DNA from: Gammaproteobacteria bacterium
GTDB lineage: Bacteria > Pseudomonadota > Gammaproteobacteria > Acidiferrobacterales > UBA6901
Direction of reading: 5' to 3'
DNA length: 45,941 nucleotides
NCBI GenBank assembly: GCA_016218345.1
Contig: JACREH010000117.1
Span: 1-45,941 of the forward strand
The notes under the pieces are model-generated. The model did no database searches and was not told the DNA's origin. It saw only the letters and a list, made by a program, of their open reading frames with translations. Below, one piece after another: positions 31,419 through 45,941 of the stretch. Within the stretch, counting starts at the first letter, position 1. The number at the start of each line of letters is the position of its first letter. The position numbers and the translations under genes were made by a program.

Positions 31419-32960
<1,542 letters not shown>

Positions 32961-32976
32961 TCGAGAAGACAGTATT

Positions 32977-33058
32977 GAGTTATGAGTGATTAGTTATAAG
33001 TTAGGGTTGCGCGTGTAGCGCGCCCCATAACTAAGCACTTAAAACTTAAAACTTTAAA
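32977..33058. repeat. Family-2 intergenic palindromic repeat (atpA-atpG)
   Basis: AGTGATTAGTTAT (32985-32997) pairs with ATAACTAAGCACT (33027-33039), one mismatch, around a GCGCG core. Confidence 0.8.
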
Positions 33059-33071
33059 CTGACTTAAATAT

Positions 33072-33938
33072 ATGGCCGTCGGCAAAGAAATACGCAAACA
33101 GATCAAGAGCATCCAGAACACGCAGAAGATCACGCGTGCCATGGAGATGGTCGCGGCCAGCAAGATGCGCCGCGCCCAGGAGCGCATGCAGGCCGCGCGC
33201 CCGTACGCCCACAAGATCCGCAACGTCGTGAGCCATTTGCACTACGCCCACCCGGAATACAAGCACCCGTTCGTGATCGGGCGCGAGGCCAGGCGTATCG
33301 GCATGATCCTGACGACCTCGGATCGCGGCCTATGCGGCGGCCTGAACACCAATCTGCTGCGCACCGCGCTGATCGAGATGAAGGCCTGGCACGACCAGAA
33401 GATCGACGTCGACATGTGCACCATCGGCAGCAAGGGCTTCATGTTCAGCAAGCGTATCGGCGGCAACATCCTGTCGCACGTGTCGCACCTCGGCGACAGC
33501 CCGCGCATCGAGGACCTGATCGGCACGGTCAAGGTCATGCTCGACGCCTACACCGAGGGCAAGGTCGACCGGCTGTACCTGGTATACAACCGCTTCGTGA
33601 ACACCATGACGCAGCAGCCGGTGATCGAGCAATTGCTGCCGCTGCCGGCCTCGGCGACCGAGGCCGAGGAGCTCAAGCATCACTGGGATTATATCTACGA
33701 GCCGGACGCGCGCGAGGTGCTGGACGACCTGCTGACGCGCTACATCGAATCGCTGGTCTATCACGGCGTCGCCGAGAATCAGGCCTGCGAGCAGAGCGCG
33801 CGCATGGTGGCGATGAAGTCGGCATCAGACAACGCCGGCACGCTGATCGACGAACTGAAACTGAAGTACAACAAGGCCCGGCAGGCGGCGATCACCCAGG
33901 AAATCTCCGAGATCGTCGGTGGCGCCGCGGCGGTTTGA
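33072..33938 (+). CDS. atpG: F0F1 ATP synthase subunit gamma
   Basis: [50 protein letters not shown]. Confidence 0.98.
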
Positions 33939-33950
33939 TATGAATTCGGA

Positions 33951-34050
33951 ACGCAGATGAACGCGGATCACAACGCCGATAAACGCAGATAAATTAACTC
34001 GAAAAAAAATCTGCGTTCATCTTTATTATGAATCTGCGTTTATCTGCGGA
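33951..34050. repeat. Family-1 intergenic palindromic repeat (atpG-atpD)
   Basis: GATAAACGCAGAT (33978-33990) and ATCTGCGTTTATC (34032-34044); nested GATGAACGC/GCGTTCATC arms. Confidence 0.85.
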
Positions 34051-34077
34051 AAAAGATTTTACTTTTTGAGGCACTGA

Positions 34078-35457
<1,380 letters not shown>

Positions 35458-35464
35458 CAGCAGT

Positions 35465-35552
35465 TGTTAGTGATAAGTGATGAGTTATAAGTTGATGTTG
35501 CGCGCGCCGCGCGCATCCTTAACTAAGCACTTATAACTTAGAACTTAAAACT
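35465..35552. repeat. Family-2 intergenic palindromic repeat (atpD-atpC)
   Basis: AGTGATAAGTGATGAGTTATAAGTT...GCGCGCGCCGCGCGC...AACTAAGCACTTATAACTTAGAACTT. Confidence 0.8.
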
Positions 35553-35563
35553 GGTTTTAAAAT

Positions 35564-35986
35564 ATGGCCATGACCCTACACGTCGACATCGTATCCGCCG
35601 AGAAGGAGATCTACTCCGGAAAGGCCGAGATGGTGTTCGCGCCGCTCGTGACCGGCGAGGTCGGTGTGCTGCCGCGCCATGCGCCGCTGCTGGCGCGCAT
35701 GAAGGCCGGCGAGGTGCGGGTGCGCACCGAGAGCAACGAGGATCTATACTTCTACGTATCGGGGGGGCTGCTGGAGGTCCAGCCGTACGTGGTGACGGTG
35801 CTGGCCGACACTGCGTTGCGCGCCAAGGACCTCGACGAGGCCGCGGCGTTGCAGGCCAAGGAGCGCGCCGAAGACGCGCTCAAGAACCGCCAGGCCAATA
35901 TCGACTACGCCAAGGCCCAGGCCGAGCTTGCCGAGGCGGTCGCGCAACTGCGCGCCATCAAGCGTCTGCGCGAGAAGACCAGGTAG
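35564..35986 (+). CDS. atpC: F0F1 ATP synthase subunit epsilon
   Basis: [49 protein letters not shown]. Confidence 0.97.
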
Positions 35987-36027
35987 TCCACGTCCCCCGG
36001 CGGCGGGGTCGCGGCATGAGGTCCGTT

Positions 36028-36519
36028 ATGTCCTATCCGGTGGTCGAAGCAGGCAAGGTCGTGTCGCTCAGCTACGTGCTGCGCAACGAGCGCGACCAGA
36101 TCGTCGAATACAGCGACGTGCCGATCGCCTACGTGCACGGTGCCGGCAGCGATCTGTTTCCCGAGATCGAGCGGGCGGTCGAGGGCTGCGGCGTCGGTGA
36201 CAAGATCACCGTCAGCCTCTCGCCCGAGCAGGCGTTCGGCGCGCGCAACCCGGAGCTCGCCTTCAGCGACGACGTCGAGAATGTCCCGCCCGAGCTGCGC
36301 CGCCTCGGCACCCAGCTCGAGGCCCAAAACGCCAAGGGCGAGACCCTGACCTTCGTGGTCACGCACATGGAAGGCGGGCGGCTGACGGTCGACGCCAATC
36401 ATCCGCTCGCCGGCCAGCGCGTGACCTTCGCAGTGACGGTGTGCGAGATCCGCGACGCCACCCCCGAGGAACTCCGCTCCGGCCGGCCGGACGCCTCGCT
36501 CAGCCCGCCGCTGCAATAG
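36028..36519 (+). CDS. FKBP-type peptidyl-prolyl cis-trans isomerase, SlyD-like
   Basis: LSYVLRNERDQIVEYSDVPIAYVHGAGSDLFPEIERAVEGCGVGDKITVSLSPEQAFG; VDANHPLAGQRVTFAVTV. ORF track starts at 36016. Confidence 0.9.
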   Translation: MSYPVVEAGKVVSLSYVLRNERDQIVEYSDVPIAYVHGAGSDLFPEIERAVEGCGVGDKITVSLSPEQAFGARNPELAFSDDVENVPPELRRLGTQLEAQNAKGETLTFVVTHMEGGRLTVDANHPLAGQRVTFAVTVCEIRDATPEELRSGRPDASLSPPLQ

Positions 36520-36620
36520 ACTTGCCCAAGCGGGGGCGCATATCTAGTCACCGTCCCGCCGTGTCCGGTCGGAAGGCGCGCGGTCTATAATCAGCCATCG
36601 ATCCGCATTCGAGCGCCAGC

Positions 36621-37985
36621 GTGAAGCTAGACATCGTCATCCTCGCGGCCGGCAAGGGCACGCGCATGTATTCCGAGCGCCCCAAGGTGTTGCATGCGCT
36701 CGCCGGCCGGTCGTTGCTCGTGCATGTCATCGACTGCGCGCGCGCCCTCGAGCCTTCGCGCATCCGCGTGGTCTACGGATTCGGCGGCCGGCAGGTGCCC
36801 GAGGCCCTGGCGGACGCGCCGGTCGAGTGGGTACTGCAGGCCGAGCAGCACGGCACCGGTCACGCGCTGCGCCTGGCCATGACCGACATTGCCGACGACA
36901 CGCTGGTGCTGGTGCTGTACGGCGACGTGCCGCTCACCCGCCCGGCGAGCCTCCGGCCGCTGATCGATGCGGCCGCGGACGGCGCGCTGGCGCTCATGAC
37001 GGTGGAGCTGGCCGATCCGGCCGGCTACGGGCGCATCGTTCGCGACCGCGCCGGGCGCATCGTTCGCATCGTCGAGCACAAGGACGCCACGCCCGCCGAG
37101 CGGGCGCTGACCGAGATCAACACCGGCATCCTGGCGGCGCCGGCCGGGCGGCTGAAAAAATACCTGGCGGCCCTGACAAACGCCAATGCCCAGGGCGAGT
37201 ACTATTTGACCGACGCGGTCGCGCTGGCCGCTGCCGACGGTGTTAAGATTGCCGGCCTGTCACCGGCCGATCGCTGGGAGATCATGGGTGTGAACAGCAA
37301 GACGCAGCTCGCCGAACTCGAACGCATTCACCAGCGCCAACAGGGCCAGGGCCTGATGGACAAGGGGCTGACGCTGTCGGACCCGGCGCGCTTCGATCTG
37401 CGCGGCACGCTCGAATTCGGCGCGGACGTGGTGATCGACGTGAATGTCGTGATCGAAGGGCGCGTGACGCTCGGCGACGGCGTGAGGGTCGGTCCGAACA
37501 ACGTGTTGAAGGATTGCCGTATCGGCGCCGGCACGGAGATACTCGCCAACTGCGTGATCGAGGACTGCCAGATCGGCGCCGGTTGCCGCATCGGGCCGTT
37601 CGCACGCCTCCGCCCGGAGGCGGACGTCGGGGACGGCGCGCATATCGGCAACTTCGTCGAGATCAAAAAATCCCGGATCGGCGCCGGCAGCAAGGTGAAT
37701 CATCTGGCCTATGTCGGCGACAGCAGCATCGGCCGGGACGTGAACATCGGCGCCGGGGCGATCACCGCCAACTACGACGGCGCCGACAAACACCGCACGC
37801 AGATCGAGGACAACGCCTCGATCGGATCGAACTGCGTGCTGGTCGCGCCGGTGACGATCGGCGTCGGCGCCACCGTCGGTGCCGGCTCAGTGATCACCAA
37901 GGACGCCCCGTCCGGCGAACTGACCGTGGCGCGCGCCAAGCAGGTGACCATCCCCGGCTGGAAGCGGCCGACCAAGAAGAAGTAG
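36621..37985 (+). CDS. glmU: Bifunctional UDP-GlcNAc pyrophosphorylase/GlcN-1-P acetyltransferase (GTG start)
   Basis: DIVILAAGKGTRMYSERPKVLHALAGRSLL; left-handed beta-helix hexapeptides; TANYDGADKHRTQIEDN. Confidence 0.97.
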   Translation: MKLDIVILAAGKGTRMYSERPKVLHALAGRSLLVHVIDCARALEPSRIRVVYGFGGRQVPEALADAPVEWVLQAEQHGTGHALRLAMTDIADDTLVLVLYGDVPLTRPASLRPLIDAAADGALALMTVELADPAGYGRIVRDRAGRIVRIVEHKDATPAERALTEINTGILAAPAGRLKKYLAALTNANAQGEYYLTDAVALAAADGVKIAGLSPADRWEIMGVNSKTQLAELERIHQRQQGQGLMDKGLTLSDPARFDLRGTLEFGADVVIDVNVVIEGRVTLGDGVRVGPNNVLKDCRIGAGTEILANCVIEDCQIGAGCRIGPFARLRPEADVGDGAHIGNFVEIKKSRIGAGSKVNHLAYVGDSSIGRDVNIGAGAITANYDGADKHRTQIEDNASIGSNCVLVAPVTIGVGATVGAGSVITKDAPSGELTVARAKQVTIPGWKRPTKKK

Positions 37986-38085
37986 TGCAAAGTGATTAGT
38001 GATTAGTGCTCAGTGACAAGTTATTGAGCGCGCGGCGCGCGCACCACCACTTATCACTCATAACTCCTAACTTAGAACTGATGAA
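37986..38085. repeat. Family-2 intergenic palindromic repeat (glmU-glmS)
   Basis: AGTGATTAGTGATTAGTGCTCAGTGACAAGTTATTGAGCGCGCGGCGCGCGCACC...CACTTATCACTCATAACTCCTAACTTAGAACT. Confidence 0.8.
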
Positions 38086-38092
38086 CTAACTT

Positions 38093-39919
38093 ATGTGCGG
38101 CATCGTCGGCGCGCTGGCGCAACGCAATATCGTCCCGATGCTGCTCGAGGGCTTGAAGCGCCTCGAGTACCGCGGTTACGATTCCGCCGGCATCGCCATC
38201 CTCGACCACGGCCTCAAGCGGGTGCGGCGCGTCGGGCGGGTGGCCGAGATGGAGGCCGAGGCCAAGGCCCAGAATCTGACCGGCATGCTCGGCATCGGCC
38301 ACACCCGCTGGGCGACGCACGGCGGCGTTACCGAGTTCAACGCCCATCCGATCGTGTCGCGCAACGAGATCGCGGTGGTGCACAACGGCATCATCGAAAA
38401 CCACGAGCAGCAACGCGCCCGCCTCGCCGCCCTCGGCTACGCGTTCGAATCGCAGACCGACACCGAGGTCATCGCCCACCTGGTCCATTACTATTTCGCG
38501 CAAACCGGCGAGCTGTTCGCGGCCACGCGCCGGGCGGTCGCCGACCTGCGCGGTGCCTACGCGATCGGCGTGGTCGCGGTGAAATCGCCGGAGACCATCT
38601 GTTGCGCGCGCATGGGTTGCCCGCTCCTCATCGGTGTCGGCGACGGCGAGAATTTCTTCGCCTCGGATGTCTCGGCGGTGCTGCCGGCGACGCGCCGCGT
38701 CATCTATCTCGAGGAAGGCGACGTCGCGGCGATCACGCGCGACCGTATCGAGATCGTGGACCGCGACGGCCGGCCGGTCACCCGCCCGGTGCGCATCTCC
38801 GAGCTGTCGGCCGACGCCGTTGATCTGGGGCCGTATCGCTACTACATGCAGAAAGAGATCCACGAACAGCCGCGCGCGCTGTCCGACACGCTCGAAGCGG
38901 TGTTGAACGAGGGCGTGCATGCCGGGCTGTTCGGCAAGGATGCGCCCGCGGTGCTGGGCGAGATCGACAGCGTGCTGATCCTGGCGGCCGGCACCAGTTA
39001 TTACGCCGGTCTGGTCGGGCGCCAATGGCTGGAGGCGATCGCGCGCATTCCGTGTGCGGTCGAATTGGCCCATGAGTACCGCTATCGCGAGTCCATCCCG
39101 AATCCCCGGCAGCTGGTCGTGACGCTCTCGCAGTCCGGCGAAACCCTGGACACCATGGAGGCGCTGAAGCGCGCCAAGGAACTGGGCCATGCCGACACGC
39201 TGGCCATCTGCAACGTCGCGGAAAGCGCCATCCCGCGCGCCTCGAAACTGGTATTTCACACCCGCGCCGGCGCCGAGATCGGCGTGGCCTCGACCAAGGC
39301 GTTCACCACCCAGCTGGCGGCGTTGTTCATCCTGACGCTGGTGCTGGCCAAGCAGCGCGGCCGGTTGTCCGCCGACGACGAACGCCGCCACCTGGAGGCG
39401 CTCCGCCATCTACCGGGCAGCGTGCAGCACGCGCTCAACCTGGAGCCGCAGATCCAGGGCTGGGCCGGGCGCTTCGCCGCCAAGCAACACGCCCTGTTCC
39501 TGGGGCGCGGTCTGCATTACCCGATCGCGCTCGAGGGCGCGCTCAAGCTCAAGGAGATTTCCTATATCCACGCCGAGGCCTACCCGGCCGGCGAGTTGAA
39601 ACACGGGCCGCTGGCGCTGGTCGACAGCGACATGCCGGTGGTGGTGATCGCGCCCAACGACGCGCTGCTCGAAAAGGTGAAATCCAACATGCAGGAGGTG
39701 CGCGCCCGCGGCGGCGAGCTGTATGTGTTCGCCGATCTCGACAGCCACTTCGAGAACTCCGAGGGCGTGCACGTCATCCGCACCCCGCGCCACGCCGGCC
39801 TGCTGTCGCCGATCGTGCACGCCGTGCCGGTGCAATTGCTCGCCTACCAGGTGGCGCTCGCCAAGGGCACGGACGTGGACAAGCCGCGCAACCTCGCCAA
39901 ATCCGTGACCGTCGAATAA
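38093..39919 (+). CDS. glmS: Glucosamine-fructose-6-phosphate aminotransferase
   Basis: [36 protein letters not shown]-terminal [19 protein letters not shown]. Confidence 0.98.
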
Positions 39920-39934
39920 TACCAGCGCCGCGGT

Positions 39935-41191
39935 TCAGGCCGTGCCGTACTTGGTCTCGATCTGGATGCCGACCTTTTTTAAAAACGGTGTGGGCAGCAC
40001 CCCGCCGGCGCAGACGATCACGGCGTCGTTGGCCAGTTCCAGTTCGCGCTCGTTGTGCCGCAACCGCACCTTGTCGGGCGTGATCGCCTTTACCTGCGAC
40101 TTCAATAACAGCTGCAGGCGGCCGCCGGCCGCGGCCTGATCGACGCGCTGGCGGTTTTTTTCCTTCACGCGGCTGAACGCCTCGCTGCGGTAGGAGAGCG
40201 TCACGCGCGTGCCCGGTTGCTCGGCGATGCTGACGGCCGCCTCGAGCGCGGCGTCGCCGCCGCCCACGACCAGCACGTTTCGGTCGCGGTATTGCTCGGC
40301 GTCGATCAGGCTGTACACCACCTTGGGCAGGTCCTCGCCCGGCACGTCGAGCTTGCGCGGCGTGCCGCGCCGGCCGATGGCGAGCAGCACCGCGCGCGTG
40401 CTGTAGGTGGCGCGCGTGGTCTTGACGGTGAAGCCCTGGGTGTTGGGCAGGATGTCCTCCATGCGCTCCTGGTAATTTATCTTGATGCCGGTCTGGCGCT
40501 CGATGCCCTTCCAGAAGTCGAGCAGCGCCTCCTTGCTGGTCTCGCGCATCTTGACCTTGCCGACCAGCGGCAGCGTCACCGGCTGGGTCATGACGATCTT
40601 GCCGCGCGGATATTTGAACACCGAGCCGCCGAGCGATTCCTGCTCGATGGTGACGGCGCGCAACTTGTGTTGCAGCGCGGCCAGCGACGCCGCCAGGCCG
40701 GCCGGGCCGGCGCCGACGATCACCACGTCCAACAGTTTGCCGTCGCCCTTGAGGCGGCGTACCGCGTCCATCGCCTGGCGGCCCTGCTCGACGGCGTTGC
40801 GAATCAGGCCCATGCCGCCGAGTTCGCCGGCGATGAACAGCCCCGGCACGTTGGTCTCGAACTCGGGAGTGAGCAGCGGAATGTCGACGCCGCGCGTGGC
40901 GCTGCCGAACACCAGCGTGATGGCGTCGTGCGGACAGGCGGCGCGGCAGGCGCCGTGGCCGATGCAATGCGTGGGGTTGATGAGTTGGCCCTTGCCGCGG
41001 ATCACACCGAGCACGTCGCCCTCCGGGCAGGCACGCACACAGGCGTTCGAGCCGAGGCAGCGGGCCGGATCGATGAGCGGATGCAACGACGCCGGCTCGG
41101 TGAGGCCGGCCTCGGTGGCGACCTTGAGCTGGGCGAGATTGACCCGATCGCGCCGCCGCTGGCGGTAGAGATAAAAACCGACCGCCAGCAC
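39935..41191 (-). CDS. FAD-dependent NAD(P)-binding oxidoreductase with N-terminal double ferredoxin-like motif and N-terminal hydrophobic segment
   Basis: CLGSNACVRACP and CIGHGACRAACP; VVIVGAGPAGLAASLAAL and VLVVGGGDAALEAAVSIAEQ dinucleotide folds; GTG start, hydrophobic codons continue upstream so the start is uncertain. Confidence 0.85.
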   Translation of the reverse strand: MLAVGFYLYRQRRRDRVNLAQLKVATEAGLTEPASLHPLIDPARCLGSNACVRACPEGDVLGVIRGKGQLINPTHCIGHGACRAACPHDAITLVFGSATRGVDIPLLTPEFETNVPGLFIAGELGGMGLIRNAVEQGRQAMDAVRRLKGDGKLLDVVIVGAGPAGLAASLAALQHKLRAVTIEQESLGGSVFKYPRGKIVMTQPVTLPLVGKVKMRETSKEALLDFWKGIERQTGIKINYQERMEDILPNTQGFTVKTTRATYSTRAVLLAIGRRGTPRKLDVPGEDLPKVVYSLIDAEQYRDRNVLVVGGGDAALEAAVSIAEQPGTRVTLSYRSEAFSRVKEKNRQRVDQAAAGGRLQLLLKSQVKAITPDKVRLRHNERELELANDAVIVCAGGVLPTPFLKKVGIQIETKYGTA

Positions 41192-41434
41192 CAGCGGGAT
41201 CAGATAGACGGTGTAGGCCGAGGTAGTCAGAAGCGCGCTCCGAGAAGCAACTGCCGGTCATGTTTGAAAGGGTGATTGGTCCAACGATATACCATCCCGG
41301 GGCCGCCTGCCGTACCGTGAAATCTCGGCAAGAAAAATTCTCTCACAGTTTGTCGGTCCATGCGCCCCGGCCGTCAGCCACGGCTTGTCTTGGGGGGCTG
41401 CCACAGACGACACTTTCGCTTGTTAATCAAAATA

Positions 41435-41453
41435 GTAACCACCCCCTGGTTAC
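41435..41453. promoter_or_regulatory. Inverted repeat GTAACCA-CCCCC-TGGTTAC in the divergent intergenic region
   Basis: 7-bp perfect arms 27 bp upstream of the GTG of the TPR gene. Confidence 0.55.
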
Positions 41454-41479
41454 CTTCAATATATATAAGGATGCGTTGA

Positions 41480-42124
41480 GTGTTTGTCGAAAAACGTCTT
41501 CGCCGTGCCTGGCTGTGGGCATCGTTAGCGATTGGATTGGTTGCCGTCGCCGGGGTTTGGCTGGCGCGTAAACCGGCCGACGGGCTCGGTGAGTTGTCGG
41601 CCGGCGTGATGGCCGGCCTCAAGGGCCAGGCGCCGATGCCGATGGACTCCGGCCATCCGCCGCCGACCGGCGCGCCGCAACTGCCGAGCCTGAACGATCT
41701 CTTGCCCGGACTCGAGGCCAAGGTCGCGGCCAACCCGCGCGATGTCGATTCCCGGTTGTTGCTCGCCCAGACCTACGCCGAGGTCGGGCAGCGCGACAAG
41801 GCGTTGAAAAATTTGAAACAGTTGCGCGCCGAACAACCGGGCAATGGCCACGTGGCGTTCGTGTCGGCCACGGTCTTGATGGCCGGCGGCGACCCCGGCG
41901 AGTTGCGCCAGGCCTTCGATCTCCTGGAACAAAGCCGCAAGCAGCCGGCGCTTAGCAGCATGGCGCGCTTGCAGCAAGGCGAGATTCGCCTGCGCCAGGG
42001 CGACGCCGCCGGTGCCCGCACGCTCTGGCAGAACGAGCTGCGCCAACTGGCGCCGGACGATCGACACCGTGGTCTGTTCGAGGCCGAGCTCGCCAAGCTG
42101 AACGTGCCCACGCCGAAAAATTGA
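41480..42124 (+). CDS. Membrane-anchored TPR protein, CcmI/CcmH C-terminal-like (GTG start)
   Basis: N-terminal TM; ANPRDVDSRLLLAQTYAEVGQRDKALKNLKQL and QGDAAGARTLWQNELRQLAP TPR-like. Confidence 0.7.
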   Translation: MFVEKRLRRAWLWASLAIGLVAVAGVWLARKPADGLGELSAGVMAGLKGQAPMPMDSGHPPPTGAPQLPSLNDLLPGLEAKVAANPRDVDSRLLLAQTYAEVGQRDKALKNLKQLRAEQPGNGHVAFVSATVLMAGGDPGELRQAFDLLEQSRKQPALSSMARLQQGEIRLRQGDAAGARTLWQNELRQLAPDDRHRGLFEAELAKLNVPTPKN

Positions 42125-42140
42125 AAGGATGTAATCGCCC

Positions 42141-43022
42141 ATGTCCGCCGTCAACCCCACCCAGGCCGCACGCATCCATCCGGTCGGCCACGCGCCGGTC
42201 AAAAGCGACAACCGCGCCTCGCCGTATTTCTTGATCGCCCTGGCGGTGCTGGTCGCCTGGCAGATCGCGACCGGCCTCGACTATCAGGCCGGCAGCGGCA
42301 TCGGTTATGCCTTCGGGCTGGTGGGCGGCTCCTTGATGCTGGTGCTGTTGCTCTATCCGCTCGCCAAGCGCTTCGCCTGGATGCGTGCCCTGCTGGCGCT
42401 GAAGCACTGGTTTCGCGGCCATATGTTGCTGGGGGTGGTCGGCCCGGTGTTGATCCTGCTGCACTCACGGCTGTCGTTCGGCTCGATCAACGGCGAGGTG
42501 GCGTTCTGGGCGATGGCCGTGGTGTTCGCGAGCGGCGTGTTCGGACGTTTCATCTACACCAAGATCCACCACGGTCTGTACGGGCGGCACCTGAGCCTGA
42601 ACGAGGTCAAGACCCGGCTCGGCATCAACGAACAAAACGTGCGCTCGAAATTTCATTTTCATCCGCCGCTCGAACACTATCTGGTGGCGCTCGAGCAATC
42701 GCTGCTCGCTTCCTCGGCCGGCGGTCTGGGATTGATCGTTATCGGCCCGCGCGCCCGCTGGGCGTATTTCCGGGCCAGCCGCGAACTCAAGACGGTGCTG
42801 GCCGCGCAGGCCGGCGCGCGCGGCTGGGACCGCGCCAAGCAACGGCGCTCGTACCGCTACGGTAAAAAGATCATCGCGGCCTATCTCGGGGCGATCAAGG
42901 ACGCGGCCTTGTTCAAGGCCTATGAGCGGATCTTCTCGGCCTGGCACCTGCTGCATATCCCGCTCATGGTGCTGCTGGTCGTTACCGGAGTGATCCATGT
43001 CATCGCCGTGCACATGTATTGA
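42141..43022 (+). CDS. Polytopic membrane protein with paired histidines, possible cytochrome b-type protein
   Basis: WFRGHMLLGVVGPVLILLHSRL and WHLLHIPLMVLLVVTGVIHVIAVHMY place His pairs in TM helices; overlaps the multiheme cytochrome gene. Confidence 0.6.
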   Translation: MSAVNPTQAARIHPVGHAPVKSDNRASPYFLIALAVLVAWQIATGLDYQAGSGIGYAFGLVGGSLMLVLLLYPLAKRFAWMRALLALKHWFRGHMLLGVVGPVLILLHSRLSFGSINGEVAFWAMAVVFASGVFGRFIYTKIHHGLYGRHLSLNEVKTRLGINEQNVRSKFHFHPPLEHYLVALEQSLLASSAGGLGLIVIGPRARWAYFRASRELKTVLAAQAGARGWDRAKQRRSYRYGKKIIAAYLGAIKDAALFKAYERIFSAWHLLHIPLMVLLVVTGVIHVIAVHMY

Positions 43023-44626
43023 ACGCGGACCGGGGCGTGACGCGGCGCATCGCAACCTCGTTGCTGCTGGCGGCGGTCGCGACCCTCACCATGGCGGCGC
43101 GCGCCGACCTGGGACCGCTCGACGCCCTGGTGCTGCCGGGCAAGGTGATCAAGGGACATGCCGCGCTTGAAAACGACTGTAAAAATTGTCACACGCCGTT
43201 CAAGAAATCCGCGCAACGCGATTTGTGCCTCGCCTGCCACGACCATCGTGCGGTCGCCCAGGACATCGCGGCCGGGCGCGGCTATCACGGCCGCCTCAAG
43301 GACAATACCTGCAGTGTTTGCCACACCGACCACAAGGGACGCGACGTGGATATCGTGAAGTTGGACGAGGCCCGGTTCGACCACAAGGCGACGGATTTCG
43401 CGCTGCGCGGCGCGCACGCCGCCGCCAAGGTCAAGTGCCGTGATTGTCACTCCCCGGGAGCCAAGTTTCGTGACGCGCCGTCGGACTGCCACGTCTGTCA
43501 TAAAAAAGACGACATCCACAAGGGCGGGCTCGGCAAGACCTGCGTCAACTGTCACGACGACGTGTCCTGGAAGAACGTGCGCTTCGATCACAGCAAGACC
43601 GACTATCCGCTCGATGGCCGCCACATCGATGTCGAGTGCAAGGCCTGTCATGTCGACAATCGCTACAAGGCCACGCCCAAGGATTGTTACTCCTGTCATC
43701 GCGGTGACGACGATAAGAAGGGCCACAAGGGCCGGTTCGGCAAAAAGTGCCAGAGCTGCCACGTCACCGAGGGCTGGACGTTGACGAAATTCGACCACAA
43801 GCGCGACACCAAATACCCGTTGCTAGGCAAGCACGCGCGTGCCAAGTGCAGCGCCTGCCACACCGGCGATCTCTATCAACAAAAGCTCGGGACCGCCTGC
43901 ATCGCCTGCCATGAGCGCGACGACACCCACAAGGGCCGGTTCGGCAAGAAGTGCGAGAGCTGTCACAACGAACGCGACTGGACCGGGATCCGCTTCGACC
44001 ACGACCGCGATACCAAGTACCCGCTGCTCGGCAAGCACCGCCCGCTCAAGTGCGACGCCTGCCATAAGGACGACGCCTATAAGGAAAAGCTCGGCACCGC
44101 CTGTATCGCCTGTCACCTCCAGGACGACGCCCACAAGGGCCAGGAAGGCAAGAAATGCGAGAGTTGCCACAGCGAACACTCCTGGACCAAGGCGGTGTTC
44201 GACCACGGGTTGAGCCGGTTCCCGCTGCTCGGCAAGCATGCCAAGGTCGAATGCAAGGCCTGTCACAAGCAGCCGACCTTCAAGGACGCGAGCACCAAAT
44301 GCCTGGACTGCCACGAGAAGGATGACAGCCACAAGCGTCGCCTCGGCCAGGCCTGCGAACAATGCCACAACGCCCGCGACTGGAAACAGTGGAGCTTCAA
44401 CCACAACGAGCGCAGCCAGTTCCGGCTGGACGGTGCGCACGAGCGCCTAGACTGCCACGCCTGCCATCGCCAGCCGGTCAAACACAAGATCGAGCTGGCC
44501 GGCGGCTGCGTGAGCTGTCACGAGGCCGACGACGTGCATGCCGGCAGTTACGGCGCCTATTGCGAGCGCTGTCATTTCACCTCGTCATTCAAGCAGATTA
44601 AAACCCGGATGCGCACCCTCCAATGA
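43019..44626 (+). CDS. Exported multiheme c-type cytochrome, 21 CXXCH motifs
   Basis: Sec-like signal; 21 CXXCH counted by hand. TTG start overlaps the upstream stop; GTG 43037 is an alternative. Confidence 0.92.
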   Translation: MNADRGVTRRIATSLLLAAVATLTMAARADLGPLDALVLPGKVIKGHAALENDCKNCHTPFKKSAQRDLCLACHDHRAVAQDIAAGRGYHGRLKDNTCSVCHTDHKGRDVDIVKLDEARFDHKATDFALRGAHAAAKVKCRDCHSPGAKFRDAPSDCHVCHKKDDIHKGGLGKTCVNCHDDVSWKNVRFDHSKTDYPLDGRHIDVECKACHVDNRYKATPKDCYSCHRGDDDKKGHKGRFGKKCQSCHVTEGWTLTKFDHKRDTKYPLLGKHARAKCSACHTGDLYQQKLGTACIACHERDDTHKGRFGKKCESCHNERDWTGIRFDHDRDTKYPLLGKHRPLKCDACHKDDAYKEKLGTACIACHLQDDAHKGQEGKKCESCHSEHSWTKAVFDHGLSRFPLLGKHAKVECKACHKQPTFKDASTKCLDCHEKDDSHKRRLGQACEQCHNARDWKQWSFNHNERSQFRLDGAHERLDCHACHRQPVKHKIELAGGCVSCHEADDVHAGSYGAYCERCHFTSSFKQIKTRMRTLQ

Positions 44627-45941
44627 GCGCCGCTGCCGGAAATCTCCGCGGGCACGACGTCTGCCGCCGGGTTCCAGGCGTGCGCCGGCGGGTTGTCGGA
44701 GGGCTGCTGCTGGCGCTATTCCTACTTTTCGGCGCATCGCTGACCGCTGGCGCGGCCGGCGATGCCGGCCAAAAAAGTGCGCGTCAATTCGATCATCACC
44801 AGACCGGTTTTGCGTTGACCGGGACGCATGCCACGGTCAAGTGCGAGAGTTGCCATATCCGCGGTATATTCAAGGGCACGCCGACGTTATGCGCGAGCTG
44901 CCACGTTTCCGGAAGCGGCTTGGCCGCCAGCTTCAAGTCGGCCAGTCATGTCCCGACCAACGCCGCCTGCGACCAATGCCACGACACTCGCCGTTTCGCC
45001 GGTGCGCGCTTCGATCACACCGGCGTGGCCGCGGGCGGTTGCGCCACCTGCCACAACGGCAGCGTTGCTGTCGGCAAGTCGGCCAACCATGTCCCGACCA
45101 TTCGACCCTGCGATACCTGTCACACGACCGTAGCCTGGAGCCCGTCGACGTTCAGCCACGAGAAGGTTGCCCCTGGCGGGGTCGTAAAAGGTAGTTGTAT
45201 CAATTGCCACAACCAGACGATCGCCACCGGCAAGCCCGCCACCCACATCCCAACTACCGCCGCGTGCGACACCTGTCACATCATGACCACCTGGCGGCCG
45301 GTTACGTTTGCGCACGTCGGCATCACGCCTGGCAGTTGCGCGACCTGTCATAACGGCACCACCGCCACCGGCAAGCCTGCCACCCACGTTCCGACGACCG
45401 CCGCGTGCGATATCTGCCATAGCACTGCGGCTTGGAAGCCGGCGACGTTCAATCACACCGGTGTCACGCCTGGCAGCTGCGCCAGCTGCCACAACGGCAC
45501 CACCGCCAAGGGAAAACCCGGTACCCACCTCCCGACCACCGCCGCGTGCGATAGTTGTCATACCACCGGCGCATGGAGGCCGGCGACGTTTAGTCACACC
45601 GGGATTACCACCGGTTGCGCCACTTGCCACAACGGCACCACCGCCAAGGGCAAGCCTGCCACCCATATTCTGACCACGGCGTCGTGCGAAACCTGTCATA
45701 AATCCACGACCACGTTCACGGGCGCCAAGATGGATCACACCGGCATCACCAGCGGTTGCGCCACCTGCCACAACGGCACCACCGCCAAGGGCAAGCCTGC
45801 CACCCATATTCTGACCACGGCGTCGTGCGAAACCTGTCATAAATCCACGACCACGTTCACCGGCGCCAAGATGGACCATACCGGCATCACCAGCGGTTGC
45901 GCCACTTGCCACAACGGCACCACCGCCAAGGGCAAGCCTGC
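44623..45941 (+). CDS. Exported multiheme c-type cytochrome built of diheme repeats, partial at window end
   Basis: ATG overlaps the upstream stop (ATGA); MSAAAGNLRGHDVCRR...LLLALFLLFGASLTAGAAG signal; at least 16 CXXCH. Absent from the ORF track because no stop occurs in the window. Confidence 0.9.
   Translation, partial: MSAAAGNLRGHDVCRRVPGVRRRVVGGLLLALFLLFGASLTAGAAGDAGQKSARQFDHHQTGFALTGTHATVKCESCHIRGIFKGTPTLCASCHVSGSGLAASFKSASHVPTNAACDQCHDTRRFAGARFDHTGVAAGGCATCHNGSVAVGKSANHVPTIRPCDTCHTTVAWSPSTFSHEKVAPGGVVKGSCINCHNQTIATGKPATHIPTTAACDTCHIMTTWRPVTFAHVGITPGSCATCHNGTTATGKPATHVPTTAACDICHSTAAWKPATFNHTGVTPGSCASCHNGTTAKGKPGTHLPTTAACDSCHTTGAWRPATFSHTGITTGCATCHNGTTAKGKPATHILTTASCETCHKSTTTFTGAKMDHTGITSGCATCHNGTTAKGKPATHILTTASCETCHKSTTTFTGAKMDHTGITSGCATCHNGTTAKGKP
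45617..45941 (+). repeat. Near-identical tandem DNA repeat, 141-bp period (47 aa, two CXXCH per unit)
   Basis: GCGCCACxTGCCACAACGGCACCACCGCCAAGGGCAAGCCTGC begins at 45617, 45758 and 45899. Confidence 0.9.

Follow-up and report, generated by a model that had tools for sequence, protein, structure and literature searches.

The flavin- and Fe-S-containing oxidoreductase encoded beside the multiheme cytochromes of this contig belongs to a family that accompanies the PCC3 inner-membrane protein almost without exception, its gene being usually divergent from and adjacent to that of the membrane protein. Judged by its motifs and gene order, the cluster itself is a PCC3 porin-cytochrome locus, truncated at the right end of the window (the whole stretch of 45,941 nucleotides that was analysed). 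The window is an entire contig of a 1.85-Mb, 81%-complete MAG, a member of Acidiferrobacterales. The cluster comprises the following genes:

39935-41230, minus strand: flavoprotein, an FAD/NAD(P)H oxidoreductase with a predicted membrane anchor and two ferredoxin-type Fe-S motifs
41480-42124, plus strand: TPR protein, predicted membrane-anchored and periplasmic, CcmI/CycH-like, accessory
42141-43022, plus strand: PCC3 inner-membrane protein (cytochrome b-like)
43019-44626, plus strand: MHC1, a predicted periplasmic 21-heme cytochrome with a signal peptide
44623-45941, plus strand: MHC2, a presumed extracellular multiheme cytochrome, cut by the contig end

All the genes lie where the original prediction had placed them, and the junctions are short or overlapping, as it described: the TPR gene is separated by 16 bp from the cytochrome b-like gene, which overlaps MHC1 by 4 bp, and the MHC1 and MHC2 genes overlap in an ATGA (44623/44626). 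A promoter scan of the divergent gap found none. Upstream of the cluster (31419-39919), the window carries ATP synthase genes, glmU, and glmS. The right end of the contig falls inside 141-bp repeats, the last of which are 94-96% alike; these explain the break in the assembly and leave MHC2 incomplete. No copies of the 141-bp repeats were found on other contigs of the same MAG.

The product of 42141-43022 (293 aa) has five predicted TM helices, the hydrophobic stretch at residues 183-201 being excluded as a part of the large basic cytoplasmic loop (139-269). The loops contain no lysine or arginine on the outer side, and all these residues are found on the cytoplasmic side. The transmembrane histidines, whose conservation the original prediction had set as a test, are invariant: H94, H108, H272, and H286 are identical in 48 of 48 rows of the alignment. 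They are predicted to bind two b hemes, one held by H94/H272 near the cytoplasm and the other by H108/H286 near the periplasm. Two WX3HX13H motifs are present in all 45 rows formed by this protein and its relatives, and SGXXG (SGVFG in the window protein) in 44 of them. The putative heme b pairs would lie, as two HX13H motifs on TM3 and TM5, as in the ferric reductases and NADPH oxidases (FRD, PF01794), whereas the absence of a Pfam FRD match or a PDB fold match and the number of helices (five) set the protein apart from that family. The AlphaFold model has a pLDDT of 90; a Foldseek search of the PDB with this confident model gave no match at E≤0.001, and a PDB sequence search with the profile of the protein gave no relative. 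Consequently, no fold family is claimed, and the kinship with ferric reductases rests on the motifs.

The two cytochromes, credited before with at least 37 CXXCH motifs, carry exactly 37. MHC1 (535 aa) contains 21 of them, as compared with no more than 3 in any of 2000 shuffled versions of its residues, and MHC2 contains 16 in the 439 aa encoded at 44623-45939, where the reading frame is open at the contig end. Both match Cytochrome_C7 in Pfam (2.3e-27 for MHC1 and 6.9e-24 for MHC2). MHC1 is built of three-heme modules of ~67 aa, with CXXCH spacings of 16-18, 18, and 32-33. In its complete homologues (n = 43) the number of hemes is 21 in 31 cases, 24 in nine, and 18 in three, always a multiple of three, in line with the three-heme module. 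A PDB sequence search with MHC1 gave no relative. The signal peptide suggests a periplasmic location of MHC1. MHC2 carries 47-aa repeats and is presumed to be extracellular; a large and variable heme number, an abundance of small residues, and repeats are features of the extracellular MHC of PCC3, which it fits. In the description of the pair as two giant cytochromes, "giant" is premature for a protein with at least 16 hemes; its complete homologues have from 10 to 67. A PCC3-linked open frame in another genome (L105:976-13233, G243:C17) spans 4086 residues with 133 CXXCH motifs, more than the 85 that He et al. 2017 (PMC5566968) gave as the largest number known to them from earlier reports.

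The original prediction of a trans-envelope multiheme conduit is supported, but its identity with the published PCC3 had been missed. The passages of He et al. 2017 (PMC5566968) on PCC3, described in Gallionellaceae, Leptothrix, and others, name four components: a porin, an extracellular MHC, a periplasmic MHC (median 21 hemes), and an inner-membrane protein of ~300 aa with SGXXG and two WX3HX13H motifs. The window shares with that description the gene content as far as the contig reaches, the membrane protein and its motifs, the 21-heme periplasmic MHC, and a second MHC of a kind with variable heme number; in its relatives the barrel gene comes next. It differs in that its barrel gene would lie beyond the contig end, in the conserved flavin/Fe-S gene that adjoins the cluster, and in the inserted TPR gene.

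The gene order recurring in 47 loci is the flavoprotein divergent from the membrane protein, which is followed by MHC1, MHC2, often a gene for a ~170-aa protein, and a barrel protein. The latter has mostly 600-900 aa, SPOR and TPR domains, and a barrel-like C-terminal part that ends in YRWDF or a similar sequence. Of the homologous loci, 31 extend 7.5 kb or more downstream, and the barrel protein is present at 27 of these. The outer-membrane barrel that was to be sought to the right of the cluster is found, in the relatives, just downstream. By comparison with them, the genes missing beyond the contig end would be those of the ~170-aa protein and of the SPOR/TPR/beta-barrel protein. A search of the rest of the 81%-complete MAG for the barrel protein found none, and the window contig ends before its position. 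In a MAG titled Deltaproteobacteria, a 29-heme cytochrome (L013:12482-16036) also matches the SPOR/barrel-protein profile and is an apparent fusion. At 31 of the 47 loci the flavoprotein gene is adjoined by an ankyrin/Sel1-repeat gene, in place of which the window has glmS. The two closest named relatives, Sulfurifustis variabilis and Sulfuricaulis limicola, belong to the same order and are both autotrophic sulfur oxidisers. The cluster of S. variabilis is the closest one, with 60% identity in the membrane protein and the TPR gene included; beyond its flavoprotein lies a 608-aa gene of the same length as the window glmS in that position.

The TPR protein (41480-42124) had been proposed to be a dedicated maturation factor. 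This does not agree with the rarity of its gene, a matching one being found beside the cytochrome b-like gene at only a handful of ~47 loci, or with its TPR_CcmH_CycH score (40.4 bits, below the 42-bit Pfam cut-off). The profile of the TPR protein drifted to unrelated TPR proteins, and the counts are limited to genes beside the cytochrome b-like gene. Present only occasionally, it is an accessory and not a core component, with a possible role in cytochrome maturation.

The pairing of the flavoprotein with the cytochrome b-like protein, regarded earlier as the least usual part of the cluster, turned out to be its most consistent link. Of the same 370 gammaproteobacterial genomes, 40 encode the flavoprotein orthologue (54-73% identity), 39 the membrane protein (matches with E below 1e-25; 45 in all), and 38 both, with a Fisher p of about 3e-48. 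The genes of the cluster co-occur in many other genomes, as the original prediction required. Within the order, the membrane protein is found in 12 of 57 genomes. The flavoprotein gene is present at 39 of the 44 loci that have at least 3 kb of upstream sequence, and is divergent in 36. In the case of four of the five loci without a nearby copy (G057, G130, G265, and G294), the flavoprotein is encoded elsewhere in the genome. The exception, which counts against the partnership, is G226, the only genome with the membrane protein alone; a flavoprotein fragment lies beside its cytochrome b gene. In the two genomes with the flavoprotein alone it occurs as fragments, and the assemblies are highly fragmented. 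Three genomes with two cytochrome b-like copies each (G089, G141, and G319) have two flavoproteins each. A protein scan of genome contigs with the single 42141 sequence returned one locus only; the counts given here come from whole-genome searches.

PCC3 itself is published, and the addition made here is the flavoprotein partner. No mention of it was found in the texts of the PCC3 accounts consulted, although the figures and supplements of He et al. may show the gene. The terms FAD and 4Fe-4S gave no matches in the PCC3 paper texts searched for them, and no literature linking PCC3 to any flavoprotein was found. Far-related clusters at four loci (L096, L098, L099, and L100) repeat the pairing: they consist of genes for an FAD protein (~820 aa), a cytochrome b-like protein, and a cytochrome that has 10 hemes and an FHA-like domain. 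At L099 the FAD protein has two cyclic-nucleotide-binding stretches and Fer4 domains, and the cytochrome b-like protein has a weak, sub-threshold Ferric_reduct match.

The FAD and Fe-S domains ascribed earlier to 39935-41191 were recovered by Pfam (Pyr_redox_3 at 2e-42, and Fer4 domains). The first ATG, GTG, or TTG start of this frame is GTG 41191, but the true start is probably upstream of it. All the orthologues carry a full N-terminal TM helix, the window encodes the same helix upstream in frame, and a start at 41191 would truncate it; of the candidates up to the stop codon, CTG 41230, with GGAG upstream, is the most plausible one. The single TM helix is followed by basic residues in 39 of 39 orthologues, which places the catalytic part, by prediction, in the cytoplasm. 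The six invariant cysteines are arranged in two ferredoxin-like motifs. In the second one (CIGHGAC, the motifs lying at 40931-41059 on the minus strand), an invariant histidine (H79) replaces the second cysteine, and the second cysteine of the first motif is conserved in most orthologues and is a serine in the Acidiferrobacterales ones.

The best match of the flavoprotein (Foldseek/HMMER) is YpdA, and its FAD and NAD(P)H motifs correspond to those of YpdA and of the thioredoxin-reductase-type reductases; the fold suggests that NAD(P)H is the substrate. With the YpdA/Bdr proteins and the thioredoxin-reductase-type ferredoxin-NADP reductases it shares the FAD and NAD(P)H domains, whereas it differs from them in the N-terminal TM anchor, the ferredoxin domain, and the lack of the active-site cysteine. 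In addition, residues ~105-145 (window 40742-40906) match, each time weakly, the C-terminal ends of several reductase models. This segment precedes the FAD Rossmann domain, while its usual place is C-terminal, and a circular permutation of the FAD-binding segment is likely.

The thioredoxin-reductase fold would also suit an enzyme of maturation or repair, standing outside the electron path and maintaining the reduced state of the multiheme cytochromes or of their thiols; dozens of cytochrome cysteines need reduction before heme attachment. The orthologues, however, have no conserved cysteine outside the Fe-S ligands, and an alanine (GAGPAG) occupies what we take to be the position of the catalytic cysteine of YpdA, which together argue that the flavoprotein is not a disulfide or thiol reductase. 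The score against TIGR04018 (YpdA bacillithiol disulfide reductase) is 165 bits, far from the cut-off of 339.9. Moreover, the protein faces the cytoplasm, heme attachment is periplasmic, and other multiheme systems do without such a flavoprotein, which makes this role very improbable.

On balance, we favour a PCC3-type conduit in which the dedicated flavoprotein forms the cytoplasmic end and electrons would pass along the path NAD(P)H-FAD-FeS-heme b-heme b-MHC1-MHC2/barrel-outside. NAD(P)H would reduce the FAD of the membrane-anchored flavoprotein, whose ferredoxin domain would pass the electrons to the 42141-43022 product, at its heme b on the cytoplasmic side. The electrons would then cross the membrane to the periplasmic heme b and enter the 21-heme MHC1, to be handed over to the extracellular MHC2, which may be held at the outer membrane by the SPOR/TPR/beta-barrel protein presumably encoded beyond the contig end. 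The gene content, motifs, topology, conservation, and co-occurrence are read from the sequences themselves, to which we add by inference the NAD(P)H substrate, the order of the carriers, and the outward direction.

Such a machine would operate in the manner of ferric reductases and NADPH oxidases, with flavin and NAD(P)H on the cytoplasmic side, as proposed here. In contrast to these enzymes, the flavin module would be a separate chain of another fold, and a multiheme wire would replace the extracellular acceptor site, a multiheme protein being the acceptor. The logic of a periplasmic MHC, a barrel, and an extracellular MHC is also that of MtrCAB/MtoAB, from which the window differs in having cytochromes with 21 and at least 16 hemes instead of 10, a barrel protein that in the relatives carries SPOR and TPR domains, and a heme b protein instead of CymA. 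The Methylobacter conduit described in the literature is of the MtrAB type and unrelated.

The published model (He et al. 2017, PMC5566968) runs in the opposite direction: a donor outside the cell, Fe(II) for instance, feeds electrons through MHC2, MHC1, and the heme b protein to the quinone pool. The flavoprotein would then be a side branch, e.g. one through which a minor share of electrons leaves at low potential for NAD(P)+ or ferredoxin. This model agrees with the iron and sulfur oxidisers found among the hosts, Sulfurifustis and Sulfuricaulis included, and with the CL21 expression data. A side branch, however, does not require a flavoprotein as constant as the membrane protein. In Sideroxydans ES-1, both PCC3 clusters are expressed less with Fe(II)-citrate than with thiosulfate (PMC8788666), and the PCC3 proteins show no response to magnetite. 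We regard the quinone-linked model as rather unlikely, yet as one to be weighed seriously.

Transfer of electrons from NADH to the outside is downhill, and a steep energy barrier opposes their transfer from Fe(II) to NAD(P)+ when the membrane is energised. These thermodynamics, together with the lower expression of the ES-1 clusters on Fe(II), are the reasons why outward flow seems modestly favoured over inward flow, which keeps considerable weight because of the CL21 data and of the PCC3 hosts, often autotrophic sulfur or iron oxidisers. The same parts with the same co-occurrence could also let low-potential extracellular donors (a cathode, iron sulfides, sulfur) reduce NAD(P)+ directly via the flavoprotein, all the steps being reversible and autotrophic hosts needing NAD(P)H. 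The membrane potential would make that route an uphill one, save with a strongly reducing donor or with electron bifurcation by the flavoprotein, and the route appears distinctly improbable.

In general, we tentatively propose, at somewhat less than even confidence, that the main role of PCC3 is not quinone-linked oxidation of Fe(II) but reduction across the envelope at the expense of NAD(P)H, by a split NOX-like system with an obligate and overlooked flavin/Fe-S subunit. If this is true, PCC3 would push electrons out of the cytosol to acceptors outside the cell, along a chain of tens to more than 100 hemes. PCC3 clusters are widespread, being found in about one tenth of the gammaproteobacterial genomes sampled, and they have been treated as likely iron oxidases. 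The flavoprotein, present almost exactly where the PCC3 membrane protein is, offers a concrete candidate for the inner end of the conduit and predicts coupling to NAD(P)H, so that the question of direction could be addressed by deleting one gene or by an assay in vitro.
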